Source of the DNA: Bacteroidetes bacterium HGW-Bacteroidetes-10
GTDB taxonomy: Bacteria; Bacteroidota; Bacteroidia; Bacteroidales; UBA932
Direction: 5' to 3'
DNA: 64,000 nt
Assembly: GCA_002842695.1 (NCBI GenBank)
Contig: PHDT01000019.1
Location: forward strand, 1-64,000
Below the pieces are notes generated by a model, which saw only the letters and a list, made by a program, of their open reading frames with translations, was not told the DNA's origin and searched no databases. Both the position numbers and the translations under genes were made by a program. This document shows, in pieces, positions 8,441 through 50,692 of this stretch. Numbering within the stretch: position 1 is the first letter of the stretch; each line of letters begins with the position of its first letter.

Positions 8441-10171
8441 CTACTTTTTATTTAAAAAAAAAGATTTTTGCTTGAGTTTCATTTCGGGGTCTCTTTCTAC
8501 AAAGGTAGATTTCAGGGTTTTAGGATCTACACCTGTATAAAAAATTATTGAGGACCTTGTAAGAGGAGTTGGAGTAAAATCCTGAACCTGTTCAAGCCTA
8601 ATATCTTTAAGATAAGGATTTTGAGCAAGATACCTCATATCTTCCATACGACATCCGGGATGACTTGATATAAAGTAGGGAACAATCTGGTACTTTAATC
8701 CCTCTTTTCTTATTATTGAATCGAACTCTGTTTTGAGGTTTTCAAATAATTTAAATGATGGCTTGCCCATACATTTAAGTACATGTTCTTCTGTATGTTC
8801 CGGCGCAACCTTAAACCGGCCCGAAGTATGATTTACAACAACTTCCCGCAAATACTTCTTTCCTGACTCATTGAGGTAACCTTTCTCGTCAAGAAAGAGA
8901 TCATATCGGATACCGCTGCCTACAAATGCCTTTTTAATGCCTTTAAGAGCAGAAATTTTTTCATAAAGATCCAGTAACGGATCATGAGATATATTTAAGT
9001 TCTTACATATAGCAGGATATATACAGCTCTCCCTTTTGCATTTAATACACTGGTCAATATTCTTACCCTGCATATTATACATATTTGCTGAAGGTCCTCC
9101 CAAATCTGAAATATATCCCTTGAATCCATCCATAGAAGCAATTTTCTCAGCCTCTTTTATGATTGATTCCTGAGATCTTGACTGAACAAATTTTCCCTGA
9201 TGAGCAGAAATCGTACAGAAACTGCAGGAACCAAAACACCCTCTGTGAGTATTTATGGAGAACTTAATCATCTCATAAGCGGGAATATGTTTATCCTTAT
9301 ATCTGGGGTGAGGTTTACGAGTATAAGGAAGATCATAGTATGCATCAATTTCACCAAAATCAGGAAGGTGTGCAGGAGGATTAACCTGAACATATTTATC
9401 ACCTGCTGGTTCTGATATGCATTTGGGATAATAAACATTCGACTCCTGTTCAATAACTCTGAAATTTTCTGCAAGAGCCATTTTATCCTTAAGGCAATCC
9501 TCGAATGATTTAAGTAAGATACTGTTTTTGCTGTCGGATAGAGGAGTATCTGTGACAAATGCAATCTGGGGAATCATCCGGATTTCATCAATCTGAGCAG
9601 ATGAAGCAATAGCAGCAGAAATCTGAATAATTGGTTTCTCCCCCATCCCGTATACCAGCCAGTCAGCTCCTGACTCAATAAGAACAGATGGTTTAATTCT
9701 GTTTTGCCAGTAATCGTAGTGAGTAAATCTTCTCAAAGAGGCCTCCACTCCTCCTATTACAACCGGAATATGAGGATATATATTTTTTAGGATCTGAGTG
9801 TACACAGTAACGGCATAATCAGGCCTTCTTCCGGCAGCCCCCTCGGGAGTATAAGCATCGTTGCTGCGTAGTCTCTTGTTTGCAGTATAATGGTTTATCA
9901 TTGAATCCATAACCCCTGCATTTACCCCAAAAAAAAGTCTAGGTTCGCCAAGCTTTCTGAAGTCGCGAAGGTCATCTCTCCAGTTTGGCTGAGGCACTAT
10001 TGCTACTTTATAACCCTCTTTCTCGAGAACACGGGCAATAACAGCTGTTCCGAATGATGGGTGATCTATGAAGGCATCCCCTGAGAATAGAATTATATCT
10101 GCATAATCCCAGCCCAGTGCCTCCATCTCTTTTCTGGATGTAGGAAAAGTAATATCAGTGTTTCTGGCCAT
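8441..10171 (-). CDS. YgiQ-family radical SAM protein
   Basis: About 576 residues. The N-terminal half (SGDAFIDHPSFG...) is the YgiQ-specific B12-binding-like domain. The radical SAM cluster motif is NTHRGCFGSCSFCTISAHQG (CxxxCxxC), followed by GGPSANMY and a second Cys-rich stretch (CIKCKRESCIYPAIC). YgiQ proteins are uncharacterised SAM radical enzymes with no agreed substrate. A longer reading frame opens with TTG at 10201. I choose the ATG at 10171 (MARNTDITFPT) because it follows the argS stop by one base, the pattern expected in this tight operon. Confidence 0.9.
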   Translation of the reverse strand: MARNTDITFPTSRKEMEALGWDYADIILFSGDAFIDHPSFGTAVIARVLEKEGYKVAIVPQPNWRDDLRDFRKLGEPRLFFGVNAGVMDSMINHYTANKRLRSNDAYTPEGAAGRRPDYAVTVYTQILKNIYPHIPVVIGGVEASLRRFTHYDYWQNRIKPSVLIESGADWLVYGMGEKPIIQISAAIASSAQIDEIRMIPQIAFVTDTPLSDSKNSILLKSFEDCLKDKMALAENFRVIEQESNVYYPKCISEPAGDKYVQVNPPAHLPDFGEIDAYYDLPYTRKPHPRYKDKHIPAYEMIKFSINTHRGCFGSCSFCTISAHQGKFVQSRSQESIIKEAEKIASMDGFKGYISDLGGPSANMYNMQGKNIDQCIKCKRESCIYPAICKNLNISHDPLLDLYEKISALKGIKKAFVGSGIRYDLFLDEKGYLNESGKKYLREVVVNHTSGRFKVAPEHTEEHVLKCMGKPSFKLFENLKTEFDSIIRKEGLKYQIVPYFISSHPGCRMEDMRYLAQNPYLKDIRLEQVQDFTPTPLTRSSIIFYTGVDPKTLKSTFVERDPEMKLKQKSFFLNKK

Positions 10172-39148: not shown

Positions 39149-41674
39149 ATGAATCTTATACTATCAAACGAACTAAATGAAATCATCTCTTACAGCAGAG
39201 AGGAGGCGATGAGAATGGGAAGCTACACCATTGGCATTGACCATCTGATTCTTGGAATAATCAGACACCAGGATAATGCTGCATTCGAGACACTTATGAA
39301 TTTTGGCATAGATTACAGAGAGCTGAAACTAAAAATTGAGGAACAGCTTAAAAGCGGGGAAGTAGTTCCGTTTGATCAGGCAGACAAACTGAATCTGTCT
39401 AAGGGAGCAGAAAACTCCCTTAAGATCATGTATCTTGAAGCACGTTCACTTAAGGAGGTTAAACCTGGACCGGTCCATTTGCTGCTTGCAATTCTCAGGA
39501 GTGAAGAGGGTGTTTCTATGTCTATCCTCAGAGAGTACAGGATAACCTATGAAAGGGTTAAAGATCTTCTCAAGGGAAAAGATAGTTCCAGACCTTCTGC
39601 AACATCTTCATTTGAGGAAGAGTCTGATGGACCTGCTATGGAAAGCGAAAGCGACAACCGTGCAAAAGCAGTTAAAAATATCCGCAGTCAAAGCGACACT
39701 CCTGTACTGGACAGTTTTGGATTTGACCTGACAAATGCTGCTCATGAAGGAAAACTTGACCCTGTTGTAGGAAGAGACAAAGAGATTGAAAGACTTGCCC
39801 AGATTCTTGGAAGAAGAAAGAAAAACAATCCTGTTCTTATTGGTGAACCGGGAGTTGGAAAATCTGCGATAGCCGAAGGTCTTGCCCTGCGGATTTCTCA
39901 GAGAAAGGTCTCCCGCGTGCTGTTAAATAAAAGGATTATATCACTGGATATTGGTTCTATTGTAGCTGGCACAAAATACAGAGGACAATTCGAGGAGAGG
40001 ATGAAAGCCATACTCGGAGAGATATCCAAGAATCCAGAGATAATTCTGTTTATTGACGAGTTGCATACTCTGGTAGGCGCAGGGGGTGCCTCAGGCTCTC
40101 TTGATGCTGCAAACATGCTTAAACCGGCTCTTGCCAGAGGCGAAATTCAGTGCATTGGAGCTACTACTCTTGACGAATACCGGGAATATGTAGAGAAGGA
40201 TGGCGCGCTTGAAAGAAGGTTCCAGAAAATCATGGTTGATCCTACAAATTTTGAGGAGACCAGGCATATTCTTGAAAACATAAAGGAGAGGTATGAAAAG
40301 CACCACAATGTTCACTATACAGATGAAGCGTTAACAGCATGCATAAGATTATCTCAAAGGTATATTACAGACAGATGTCTTCCTGATAAGGCAATTGATG
40401 CACTTGACGAGGCGGGATCCAGAGTACACCTTATGCATTTGAAAGTTCCTGACTCAATTCTTCAAATGGAAAAAGAGATTGAACCAATAAGAATTGAGAA
40501 GAGGCTTGCTGTAAGCAACAGTCAGTACGAAACAGCTGCTCAGCTAAGAGATCTTGAAAAACAGAAAATGGAAGAGCTTGAGGTTGCTCAGAAAACATGG
40601 AATGAAGAACAAAATTTGCATCCTCAGGAGGTGAATGAGAATGATGTTGCCGAAGTCCTTTCCATGATAACAAGTGTTCCTATTCACAGACTTGCCGAGA
40701 AAGAGGGAGACAGACTTGCCAGAATGGGTGAAAACCTCAGAAAAAAGATTATTGGCCAGGATGAAGCGGTTGACAAAGTTGTAAGAGCTATTCAAAGGAA
40801 CAGAGCTGGTTTAAAAGACCCGAATAAACCTATCGGTACATTTCTTTTTCTGGGCCCTACCGGGGTGGGGAAAACTCAGCTTGCCAAAATCCTGACAGCA
40901 TACCTGTTCGACACTGTCGATAATTTAATCAGGATTGACATGAGCGAATTCATGGAGAAATTTGCTCTAAGCAGGCTTATTGGAGCGCCTCCGGGATATG
41001 TTGGCTACGAAGAGGGTGGTCAGCTTAGCGAAAAGGTGAGAAGAAAGCCATACTCAGTAATATTGCTTGACGAAATTGAGAAAGCACACCCGGATATTTT
41101 CAATATCCTTCTTCAGGTACTTGACGAAGGCAGGCTGACAGACAGCAACGGAAGACACATCGACTTCAGAAATACCTTGCTGATAATGACTTCAAATATT
41201 GGCAGCAGGGAGGTAAAAGACTTTGGCAGTGGGCTGGGCTTTTCCAACTCCACAAAGAGAAATGTAAGTGACAACACAAAACACATTATTGAAAAGGCGC
41301 TTAAGAAAACATTCTCGCCTGAATTTCTGAACAGACTTGATGAACAAATTCTCTTTAACACTCTAAGCAAGGAGGATATCTGCCAGATTATTGACATTGA
41401 ACTTGATGATCTGTACAAGAGAATTGAACTTGCTGGCTACAAGCTTATTATTAGCGAAGATGCCAAAAGGTTTGTTGCCGATGAGGGTTACGATCCACAG
41501 TTTGGAGCAAGACCGCTTAAAAGAGCTATTCAGCGTCACATAGAAGATGCAATTGCAGAAGCGATAATCAGCGGTAAGTTTAAGCAGGGCGAGACGCTTC
41601 ATGTTGAAACCGATAAAGAAGATTTATCAGAGGGAGGTACGCCTCAGAAACTTAAGGTTACCTCTGGTTCTTAA
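39149..41674 (+). CDS. clpC: ClpC-type AAA+ unfoldase
   Basis: About 841 residues. A Clp N-domain (about 1-145) is followed by AAA+ module 1 (Walker [14 protein letters not shown], Walker [16 protein letters not shown]). A middle region carries the UVR motif ([22 protein letters not shown]) typical of ClpC. AAA+ module 2 has Walker [13 protein letters not shown] and Walker [14 protein letters not shown], ending in a ClpB D2-small domain. It unfolds proteins for ClpP or acts as a chaperone. [20 protein letters not shown] fits the usual ClpC N-terminus, supporting the 39149 start. The last 48 bases overlap the convergent gene. Confidence 0.92.
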
Positions 41675-42415
41675 ACTTTGATAATTGCTAGCGGAAGACT
41701 CCGGGAAGGGCAATTTGCGCTCTCTCCGGAGTTTTTTTACTGAGTGTCTGGTATAATCCCTTGTGTCAACAATAAAATCCAGAGGTTCACTTTCAGAAAC
41801 GAGAACAAAACCCAGTTTTTTGTATGCATCTCCATCTGACCACTCTTTATCTGCATAACTCATTACTTCCTGAGGAGAGTGCTCTCTTATAAAATGTTCA
41901 AGAAATTTTCCCATACCACCGGCTACCCTCACGCCAGATAAACTAGCGTATCTTACCCACTCATACGAACTAACTATCTCCCCTTCCCTGTTCATTGGTC
42001 TGGGTGCTGAAAAGGCAGATACAGCCACAATTTCCCCGGTTTTATCCATCAAGGCATAAAAATACTTAGCATTAACGCTTCCCAGAAGGTGATTCTCATT
42101 TAAAAAAAATCCGGCCCTGGCCTTGTCAATCTTTGAAACAGTACAATTCCTTGCAAAAATTGAAGACTTTTTTCCGAGATTGGCAAGTAACCTGCCCCTG
42201 ACAATATCTCCGCGTGAGTACCACAAATCCTCATACAGAGTTATTGTCCTGTAACCGTCAATTACGGGAAAATCCTTCCCAGACGGAGTACCCAGAAGTA
42301 TCAGTTCTGCACAAATTTTGAAAGAATCAATAAATACAAGGTTTTCGCGAACAAAAAATGAAATATTGTTAGCTGCAAGAAACTCTCTGAATTCTAGTGT
42401 AAAACTGTTTGCCAT
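41627..42415 (-). CDS. GNAT-fold-like protein related to a phage-associated domain
   Basis: 262 residues, soluble. The middle section KIDKARAGFFLNENHLLGSVNAKYFYALMDKTGEIVAVSAF and then GMGKFLEHFIREHSPQEVMSYADKEWSDGDAYKKLGF matches, from memory, a GNAT-like domain found in phage proteins and homing-endonuclease neighbours (pattern FL-x-x-NHLQG ... GG-x-x-K-L-F-x-x-F ... YSD-x-R-W-x-x-G-x-Y-x-x-LGF). The N-terminal 90 residues and the basic C-terminus are unassigned. No nuclease motif is present. The 3' end overlaps clpC by 48 bases. Function unknown; a lone domesticated phage gene is possible. Confidence 0.6.
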   Translation of the reverse strand: MANSFTLEFREFLAANNISFFVRENLVFIDSFKICAELILLGTPSGKDFPVIDGYRTITLYEDLWYSRGDIVRGRLLANLGKKSSIFARNCTVSKIDKARAGFFLNENHLLGSVNAKYFYALMDKTGEIVAVSAFSAPRPMNREGEIVSSYEWVRYASLSGVRVAGGMGKFLEHFIREHSPQEVMSYADKEWSDGDAYKKLGFVLVSESEPLDFIVDTRDYTRHSVKKLRRERKLPFPESSASNYQSLRTRGNLKFLRRTSL

Positions 42416-42505: not shown

Positions 42506-42591
42506 GATTCAGTAGCTCAGCAGGTAGAGCACAACACTTTTAATGTTGGGGTCCTGGGTTCGAGCCCCAGCTGGAAGCCCCAGCTGGATCA
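42506..42591 (+). tRNA. tRNA-Lys(UUU) with a 13-nt tandem duplication in the T-arm/acceptor region
   Basis: The 5' acceptor GATTCAG (42506-42512), the D arm, an anticodon arm with loop CTTTTAA (anticodon TTT at 42539-42541) and a T arm (42554-42570) are all canonical. GCCCCAGCTGGAA (42564-42576) is then followed by GCCCCAGCTGGAT (42577-42589). If either copy is removed the tRNA is a perfect 73-mer whose acceptor closes as GATTCAG/CTGGATC with discriminator A42591. As written, the first copy gives CTGGAAG, which mispairs at 1-72 and 2-71. It could be broken, processed unusually, or an assembly error. Confidence 0.8.
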
Positions 42592-42598
42592 CAAAAAC

Positions 42599-42632
42599 AG
42601 AAGCCAAGCGTCAGCTTGGCTTCTTTGTTTTT
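42599..42632. terminator. Terminator of tRNA-Lys(UUU), also facing the fimbrillin operon
   Basis: Eleven-base perfect stem AGAAGCCAAGC / GCTTGGCTTCT with GTCA loop. TTGTTTTT follows on the plus strand and a TGTTTTTG run on the minus strand. Confidence 0.85.
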
Positions 42633-42635
42633 ACT

Positions 42636-42710
42636 CCCCAGCTGGTCAAGCTTGCTTGAACAAGATGGGTAAGTAAAAAGATACCAGGTCCGGCGCGGCA
42701 AGCTTGCTTG
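42636..42710. repeat. Short repeats between the tRNA terminator and the fimbrillin operon
   Basis: CCCCAGCTGG (42636-42645) is a third copy of the sequence duplicated in the tRNA 3' end. CAAGCTTGCTTG occurs twice as a direct repeat (42647-42658 and 42699-42710), flanking a segment with an unusually GC-rich part (CCAGGTCCGGCGCGG). No gene is seen. It may be the scar of a small insertion, or a boundary element. Confidence 0.5.
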
Positions 42711-42721
42711 GGAGCGCTAGA

Positions 42722-44287
42722 TTACAAAGGCTTGTTAATAATATTAGCATCAGTTAATACAACCGCACCATTAATAGCAAGAGCTCTTCCCTCCAGGATA
42801 GCCCCGGCATTCAGAGTAATTGATGTAAGAGCAAGTAAATTTCCTTTGAATGTAGTGTTGTCGCCTATTGTTGCCGACGACCCTATCTGCCAGAAAATAT
42901 TTTCGGCCTTTGCACCATTTGCAAGAATAATATTCCCCCCGGCACCACCAATTGTTGTTAATGCATCAGCTACCTGAAATACCCAGAAAGAGTTAGAATT
43001 TCCCTGAGCGTCCAGTGTCAGATTCCCTGCCTGCACCATAAGGGTTGATAAAGATTTGTATATACCCGGAATTAGTACTGATCCGCCAATATCTCCCGCT
43101 ACAATTGAGGGCGAAGGGCTGACAGCGCTTTCTGCATCATTATATGCATCTGTAAGGTCTAACTTTGCCTGTGTAAGCATTGCGGCTGTACCTGGAGTAA
43201 CATCATCCGGTGCGTATGTAAAGCCATTGACAACTGTTGCAGGAGGAAACCCTGTAATAGCGGCACGTAATCCCGGACTAATACCAACATCCATGTCATT
43301 GACGATACTCAGACCGGAGCTGCTTACCCCCACCCCTCCAAGAATACCGAACTCTTTTGCAGTTTTAAGGTCAATAAACGGGATAATAATTGTGAGGTTA
43401 TATTTGTTGTTTCTTTTGATAAATATCCCATCCCTGACCACAGTTGTCACACCCAGGTCTGTATGTGCATTAACAGTAAAAGTGCCCCCAGTGTGATCAC
43501 CAGGATTAACCATCAGCATCGCTCCAGCTGTTGTGGACGGGTCACTGGTAATTATGCAGTCACCTGAAATATTCAATATCGAACTGTTAGAACCGGCAGC
43601 GCCAGTAATGGTATACAATGCATCTCCTGTAGGTTTAACCTGAGTTAAATCAATTATTCCTGATGTAAACGAGAGGCTGGCCCCTGTAGAAGTTGTAATT
43701 TCAACCTTATTGAATTTTGTTGTTCCCTGTGGAATAAGGACCTTAAACTCAATCATAGAAAATACATGGTTATAAACCAGATTAACGGGAGTCGCTGCTC
43801 CCTCGGTAAGAGGATTGAAGCTCTTTGGAGTTGAAACCAAAAAATCAATATCTCCAATATGTGTATATGCACTGCCCGCCTGAGCCTGAGTGGCAGGAAG
43901 GGCAATGGGAATTTCAGTAGCCTCTTTTAAGGAATTTGATATGCTGTATGGATAGTAGGAATAAAATTCATGTACTCCTGCTCCCCAGTATATGGATCCG
44001 TCAAAATTGGAACTTGTAGTTTGAGTCAAAGCAGTAAATTCTGCATTTTTTACTCCTACTGTACCACCGGGATTCTTTGCCTGTGCACAATAGATACCGG
44101 TTTTATCGAGATTATCCCAGCTTGTTGAGAGTCCGTTAAGGATAGTTTTGGTTTGAGGAGAGCTGTATGCACCACTAATTTGTATGAGATCTCCGCTTTT
44201 ACTGACAGCTTCCGAAGGTAATTCTTCTCTCACACAGGAAGTAATCAATAGACCTGCAAAGCAAAGGATATATAAATATTTATTCAT
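42722..44287 (-). CDS. Fimbrillin-like lipoprotein fused to a C-terminal DUF3494 (ice-binding-like) domain
   Basis: 521 residues. MNKYLYILCFAGLLITSC is a lipoprotein signal. Residues about 30-300 resemble fimbrillin-family proteins (TKTILNGLSTSWDNLDKTGIY, EFYSYYPYS, NHVFSMIEFKVLIPQG). From about 305 to the end the DUF3494 beta-solenoid domain is clear: KEFGILGGVGVSSSG, DMDVGISPGL, ITGFPPATV, LDLTDAYNDA, LIPGIYK, LTLDAQGNSNSFWVFQV, NIFWQIGSSATIGDNTTF, NLLALTSITLNAGAILEGRA. DUF3494 contains known ice-binding proteins but many members are uncharacterised adhesin-like modules. It is last in a three-gene fimbrillin operon. Confidence 0.85.
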   Translation of the reverse strand: MNKYLYILCFAGLLITSCVREELPSEAVSKSGDLIQISGAYSSPQTKTILNGLSTSWDNLDKTGIYCAQAKNPGGTVGVKNAEFTALTQTTSSNFDGSIYWGAGVHEFYSYYPYSISNSLKEATEIPIALPATQAQAGSAYTHIGDIDFLVSTPKSFNPLTEGAATPVNLVYNHVFSMIEFKVLIPQGTTKFNKVEITTSTGASLSFTSGIIDLTQVKPTGDALYTITGAAGSNSSILNISGDCIITSDPSTTAGAMLMVNPGDHTGGTFTVNAHTDLGVTTVVRDGIFIKRNNKYNLTIIIPFIDLKTAKEFGILGGVGVSSSGLSIVNDMDVGISPGLRAAITGFPPATVVNGFTYAPDDVTPGTAAMLTQAKLDLTDAYNDAESAVSPSPSIVAGDIGGSVLIPGIYKSLSTLMVQAGNLTLDAQGNSNSFWVFQVADALTTIGGAGGNIILANGAKAENIFWQIGSSATIGDNTTFKGNLLALTSITLNAGAILEGRALAINGAVVLTDANIINKPL

Positions 44288-50619: not shown

Positions 50620-50692
50620 GGTTCTGTAGCTCAGTTGGTAGAGCACGACACTCTTAATGTTGGGGTCGTGGGTTCGATCCCCACCGGGACCA
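50620..50692 (+). tRNA. tRNA-Lys(CUU)
   Basis: A complete 73-nt cloverleaf. Acceptor GGTTCTG pairs with CGGGACC (G-U wobbles). The D arm is GCTC...GAGC. The anticodon stem CGACA pairs with TGTTG (one G-T wobble) around loop CTCTTAA (anticodon CTT). T arm is GTGGG-TTCGATC-CCCAC and the discriminator is A50692. CCA is not encoded. This isoacceptor reads AAG only, so AAA needs tRNA-Lys(UUU). Confidence 0.95.

Follow-up and report, generated by a model that had tools for sequence, protein, structure and literature searches.

The 64,000-nt stretch of DNA analyzed here (referred to as the window) lies on contig C34 of a draft Bacteroidales genome of 2.41 Mb in 42 contigs (completeness, 93.5%) and harbors two lysine tRNA genes, one of which, tRNA-Lys(UUU), is longer than normal as assembled. 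This gene is located between two open reading frames (ORFs) on the opposite strand and is followed by a terminator-like hairpin, which is itself enclosed by a longer inverted repeat. The features of the locus are as follows.

41627 to 42415, minus strand: ORF which we take to encode a GNAT-like protein, the neighbor of tRNA-Lys(UUU) on one side
42506 to 42591, plus strand: tRNA-Lys(UUU) gene, 86 nt as assembled versus 73 nt normally
42563 to 42575, plus strand: first copy of the 13-nt unit, AGCCCCAGCTGGA, comprising the end of the T-loop, the 3′ strand of the T-stem, and the start of the 3′ acceptor strand
42576 to 42588, plus strand: second copy of the 13-nt unit, AGCCCCAGCTGGA, followed by TCA, which forms the end of the acceptor and the discriminator
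42580 to 42645, plus strand: long inverted repeat, in which CCAGCTGG of the second copy (42580 to 42587) pairs with CCAGCTGG at 42638 to 42645 around the terminator hairpin
42600 to 42632, plus strand: terminator-like hairpin, GAAGCCAAGC-GTCA-GCTTGGCTTC, with a T-rich stretch immediately after it, as read directly from the sequence
42722 to 44287, minus strand: ORF of 521 amino acids, the neighbor on the other side, with its end at 42722; presumably a lipoprotein, the C-terminal half of which appears ice binding-like (DUF3494)
50620 to 50692, plus strand: intact tRNA-Lys(CUU) gene, detected by ARAGORN and RF00005

Structure of the tRNA-Lys(UUU) gene as assembled

The copies of the 13-nt unit at 42563 to 42575 and 42576 to 42588 are identical and abutting, and represent a perfect tandem duplication. 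The original prediction had placed two adjacent 13-nt copies in this gene, which is borne out by the sequence; the A/T mismatch that it noted between the units is merely the base following each unit in the register chosen. Removal of one copy produces, as had been claimed, a 73-nt tRNA-Lys(UUU) with the acceptor GATTCAG/CTGGATC (which includes one T.G pair) and discriminator A, and the 3′ part of the gene minus one copy matches the 3′ parts of its relatives. In its assembled form, the gene departs by 13 extra nt from the canonical layout of a contiguous 7-bp acceptor and 5-bp T-stem with a 7-nt T-loop; the T-loop motif TTCGA is intact. ARAGORN reports a tRNA-Lys(ttt) at 42506 to 42580, and the match to RF00005 attains 53.3 bits across model positions 3 to 68 of 71. 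In a survey covering the best RF00005 matches of nine genomes of the genus, the tRNA-Lys(UUU) copies score 68.8 bits over positions 1 to 71 in eight, the ninth (G001) having no copy.

A count of exact tandem copies with units of 8 to 60 nt, leaving out periods of 6 or less, returned the 13-nt unit and one 8-nt unit as the only such repeats in the window. No exact tandem repeat longer than 9 nt was obtained in five Markov-simulated windows, and the duplication is beyond chance. Elsewhere, 400 kb sampled from the genome contain exact tandem copies of 12-, 14-, 16-, and 21-nt units, and none longer than 9 nt was found in 179 kb of three relatives, a difference which is too small to interpret.

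Lysine tRNAs in the genome and in related genomes

A search of the genome itself returned the tRNA-Lys(UUU) gene and the tRNA-Lys(CUU) gene at 50620, the latter having been noted in the original prediction, with no further tRNA-Lys matches. A second intact tRNA-Lys(UUU), as a pseudogene with a functional backup would require and as had been proposed for a genome-wide search, was therefore not found in this 93.5% complete assembly; the ends of two small contigs (C22 and C33) appear as N, and the missing part of the genome could hold such a gene. The tRNA family search returned 36 matches, the anticodons of which were read by ARAGORN for all but four, located on C24 (cut by a contig end and reading as Arg), C18 (CAU), and C38 and C41 (83 to 84 nt); the RF00005 match at C41:2980, at 84 nt, is as long as a long-arm tRNA. 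In the 35 window ORFs that are supported by relatives, AAA accounts for 677 of the 1,053 lysine codons. Because AAA is so heavily used, and because tRNA-Lys(CUU) reads AAG only, the organism needs a working tRNA-Lys(UUU), and a functional copy should exist.

A match to tRNA-Lys(UUU) was identified in 17 of the 24 relatives from the same genus, the seven without one being G001, G003, G006, G013, G014, G018, and G020. In G008, a contig end cuts inside the unit, and all 16 of the relatives with a readable 3′ end carry a single copy of the 13-nt unit, the very finding which the original prediction had named as indicative of an assembly artifact. In a scan of GTDB for the T-arm with 0 to 13 extra nt and the conserved trailer, 10 of 10 records were of the single-copy length of 49 nt, including the complete Bacteroidales bacterium CF genome (CP006772); nine of these records seemingly coincide with genomes already compared, and the window's own genome is possibly absent from the scan. 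Across the order, 349 of 393 genomes (own genome included) match the tRNA-Lys query, scoring having been limited to two candidates in each genome, and among the matches listed only that of the window spans positions 1 to 86. The other listed match extending beyond position 71, in G334, was rejected as a candidate, as its sequence reads as a normal tRNA. Viral contigs yielded no match to the exact repeat.

No member of the genus has more than two matches to the tRNA-Lys query, and the single-contig genomes G009 and G010 carry one tRNA-Lys(UUU) each, together with one other match at the level of tRNA-Lys(CUU). Two tRNA-Lys(UUU) copies lie close together in G030 and G038, which belong to other families of the order. 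As separate observations, contig C11 of G013 (L116, at about 8910 to 8955) carries the tRNA-Lys trailer (TTACAAAAACAGAAGCC, with its hairpin) without a tRNA body; the trailer adjoins the downstream gene's ortholog, and a search of the G013 assembly returned no tRNA-Lys(UUU). The single-contig genome G357, also of this order, has 14 matches to the tRNA-Lys query, as judged by similarity, with twelve listed in tandem approximately 121 nt apart (C1:536105 to 537506).

Hairpins, contig ends, and a second damaged tRNA gene

The 13-nt unit contains the self-complementary sequence CCAGCTGG, and the stretch from 42574 to 42648, folded as single-stranded DNA, attains −24.4 kcal/mol (z −7.6), with none of 200 shuffled sequences folding as well. 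The same folding was obtained for the G007 locus (z −8.5); in G017, the tRNA end does not take part in such pairing, one hairpin being formed by the terminator and another by the downstream palindrome (z −6.3). A similar terminator hairpin is located 3′ of the gene in many relatives. The contigs of five relatives end past the matched stretch after 0 nt (G008), 6 nt (G016), 157 nt (G015), 179 nt (G024), and 318 nt (G011), and those of the remaining twelve of the 17 continue for at least 772 nt.

The ends of all 42 contigs were compared, of which 80 of 84 were readable, the other four (C22 and C33) reading as N. An overlap of exactly 79 nt was found for twelve pairs of ends, one of which includes the end of C34; this is the pattern characteristic of de Bruijn assembly at a k of about 79. 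Shorter unmerged overlaps of 68, 67, 67, 48, and 15 nt were also detected, that of 68 nt being between C23 and C24 inside one tRNA-Arg(UCU) gene; unmerged overlapping ends at comparable places, as would be expected for a local assembly error, are thus present. Five of the 80 readable ends, versus 0.14 expected, are located inside a tRNA gene or no more than 20 nt away from one, namely, the start of C8 (tRNA-Ile, beside an rRNA operon) and the ends of C23, C24, C32 (by our reading a truncated tRNA-Ser), and C38 (by our reading a tRNA-Leu). The corresponding Poisson probability is 4e-7 for five ends and 1.5e-5 for four (the tRNA-Ile beside the rRNA operon being left out), values which overstate the effect in that C23 and C24 each carry one side of a single gene. 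The window contains no Ns; one run of two Ns occurs in the 400 kb sampled (C39:53163), which has no match in the five relatives compared and says little. Across the 48 kb of the window covered, no frameshifted pair of matches was found in the window genes among the 123 relative ORFs with matches (of 165), by a scan which detected 36 of 40 implanted 13-nt duplications.

A second damaged tRNA gene was identified on contig C18 (G000:C18:146101 to 146194, minus strand; L096, L063). It is the third tRNA(CAU) gene of the genome and is single copy, matching 22 of the 24 relatives from the genus over 64 to 84 nt (14 at 100%); G018 and G020 returned only weaker matches, to other tRNAs. The C18 gene is missing 14 nt, the 5′ acceptor strand among them, and in 18 of 18 relatives for which the 5′ flank was examined, the acceptor strand GGGCCCA or GGGCCTA directly precedes TAGCTCAG. 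ARAGORN called no tRNA at the C18 locus and called one at its counterpart in G001. By resemblance to tRNA-Ile2 sequences, the C18 gene is probably AUA reading, and the other two CAU genes are taken to be those of elongator and initiator Met; AUA occurs 352 times in the 35 window ORFs. An organism bearing both tRNA lesions should, we infer, not be viable, and lesions in two single-copy essential tRNA genes fit assembly trouble at hairpin-rich tRNA loci better than they fit a living cell. The C18 lesion is probably another assembly error.

As an observation in its own right, in both of these tRNA genes of the genus (tRNA-Lys and tRNA(CAU), L096 to L100), a self-complementary sequence matching the 3′ acceptor strand is located immediately past the terminator, and the two could form one long hairpin; the tRNA-Lys case is that folded above (42580 to 42645).

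Interpretation of the duplication

We consider it probable that the draft assembly introduced the 13-nt tandem duplication in error and that the tRNA-Lys(UUU) of the organism is the single-copy form seen in its genus. This reading is favored because all readable relatives are single copy, because a hairpin is located at the site, and because contigs of relatives break here; it is favored further by the contig ends at tRNA genes, the unmerged overlapping ends, and the second damaged single-copy tRNA gene in the same assembly. In addition, the damaged gene is the sole tRNA-Lys(UUU) found and AAA is common, such that a working copy should exist. The original prediction had listed a pseudogene with a backup copy, a processed precursor, a tolerated extra hairpin, and an assembly error; this list holds up, assembly error is now the best supported among its entries, and the interpretation as a whole finds partial support.

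The very stable inverted repeat, which begins inside the repeated stretch and continues through the terminator, may have caused coverage to fall or the assembly graph to break, as in some relatives. Two pieces overlapping by 13 nt, one ending in AGCCCCAGCTGGA and the other starting with AGCCCCAGCTGGATCAC, would then have been joined with the overlap unmerged; alternatively, a rare artifactual read may have bridged them. Metagenome assemblies are described in published curation work (PMC7111523) as carrying local errors, including the insertion of Ns between pieces despite their overlap, which leaves duplicate sequence. The cases set out there resemble the present one in that an overlap is kept twice at a join and scaffold ends overlap by approximately the k-mer size, and the described halting of assembly at points of uncertainty may be likened to the situation at this locus. 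In those cases, however, Ns mark the join, whereas the present locus is without Ns and is known from the assembled sequence alone.

Several further points argue against an artifact. An assembler that only walks along k-mers should have met the unique junction GGA|AGCC in at least one read; the published type of unmerged-overlap error leaves Ns, of which the window has none; the window genes are free of frameshifts, the assembly being otherwise clean there; other exact tandem repeats (12, 14, 16, and 21 nt) exist in the genome; and the hairpin can also cause a genuine slippage mutation. Other readings were rejected. A foldback (inverted) template switch does not agree with the sequence after the first copy, which is a direct repeat and not the reverse complement of upstream bases. 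A k-mer artifact of a collapsed repeat is at odds with the 21-mer across the junction, which is absent from all other loci compared and occurs only in the present tRNA-Lys(UUU) locus. General poor consensus is not borne out by the frameshift scan and its control.

Alternatively, the duplication may be real, either throughout the strain or in a minor fraction of the cells, with the gene dead or nearly so, slippage having occurred beside the palindrome and an intact tRNA-Lys(UUU) being unassembled or present in most cells. The exactness of the tandem copies suggests a recent origin, slippage at the palindrome is plausible, approximately 6.5% of the genome is missing from the assembly, and paired tRNA-Lys(UUU) genes are known from G030 and G038; the normal need of a k-mer assembly for junction-bearing reads points the same way. 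The genus, however, shows no more than two query matches per genome, with one tRNA-Lys(UUU) each in G009 and G010, and the tRNA(CAU) lesion would require the same explanation independently. On this balance, we regard such a real but inactivating duplication as unlikely.

Another possibility, of lower probability, is that of a real duplication in a functional 86-nt tRNA, with both T-stem and acceptor strands supplied by the second copy such that the 12-bp acceptor/T helix is continuous and the 13 extra nt follow A58 in the T-loop, at about the 59/60 bulge. The original prediction held that the insertion splits the T-arm from the acceptor, which describes one possible pairing register; with the D and anticodon arms enforced, this split form made up 6% of the predicted structures versus 36% in which the second copy served both stems, with the 13 extra nt in the T-loop, and in 52% the acceptor paired with the second copy but no standard T-stem formed. 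That predicted preference would favor a working tRNA, as would the intact TTCGA of the T-loop and the failure to find another tRNA-Lys(UUU) in the assembly. Unconstrained folding, in contrast, predicted a cloverleaf-disrupting hairpin between the copies in 91% of sampled structures; the method is weak, as the single-copy tRNA itself formed T-stem and acceptor in 28% of constrained and 13% of unconstrained structures. Archaeal tRNA introns occur at 59/60 in the T-loop, the place which the extra bases occupy in one register here, but those introns are excised from a bulge-helix-bulge by an archaeal endonuclease. Among the matches listed, the insertion is absent from all relatives, and the tRNA(CAU) lesion would be left unaccounted for. 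The portion of a review of non-canonical tRNAs drawn on here (PMC7609411) names no such bacterial tRNA. Accordingly, a working 86-nt tRNA is considered improbable, and still more so the full claim of a bacterium living on an essential 86-nt tRNA-Lys with a 13-nt T-loop insertion near 59/60 and its acceptor/T helix kept via the second copy. Taken at face value, such a gene would suggest that a large insertion can be tolerated by bacterial tRNAs in the region which RNase P and EF-Tu contact.

Processing of a precursor by excision of 13 nt in an intron-like step, another of the options originally raised, is scarcely credible, given that its one attraction is that one copy fewer equals a normal tRNA, whereas 13 nt is too short for a self-splicing intron, bacteria are not known to possess a tRNA-splicing endonuclease, Rfam at gathering scores returned two tRNAs only and no self-splicing intron in the window, no readable relative has the insertion, and nothing observed supports such processing. 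An att-site scar of an integrating element was also rejected, as the copies abut with no element between them. The tRNA fragments left by integrating elements, as presented in PMC9897764, likewise place a portion of the tRNA twice, but those copies flank an inserted element.

With assembly error as the preferred explanation, the tRNA-Lys(UUU) locus is most likely to be taken as an ordinary one, rather than a new kind of tRNA, until reads say otherwise. Because two single-copy tRNA genes look damaged and contig ends are more common at tRNA genes than expected, the data suggest that tRNA genes with strong 3′ palindromes are possible error spots in draft metagenome-derived genomes, and in surveys of unusual tRNAs in drafts, the reads need to be checked first.

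Separately from the duplication, palindromic noncoding units are repeated downstream of tRNA-Lys(UUU) in the genus, as an array at L009:1614 to 2320 (G007). One or more copies or parts thereof are present in L004, L011, L012, L014, L015, and L018, and a degenerate form is present at 42636 to 42715 in the window; these units possibly represent a MITE-like or tRNA-end-mimicking repeat family.
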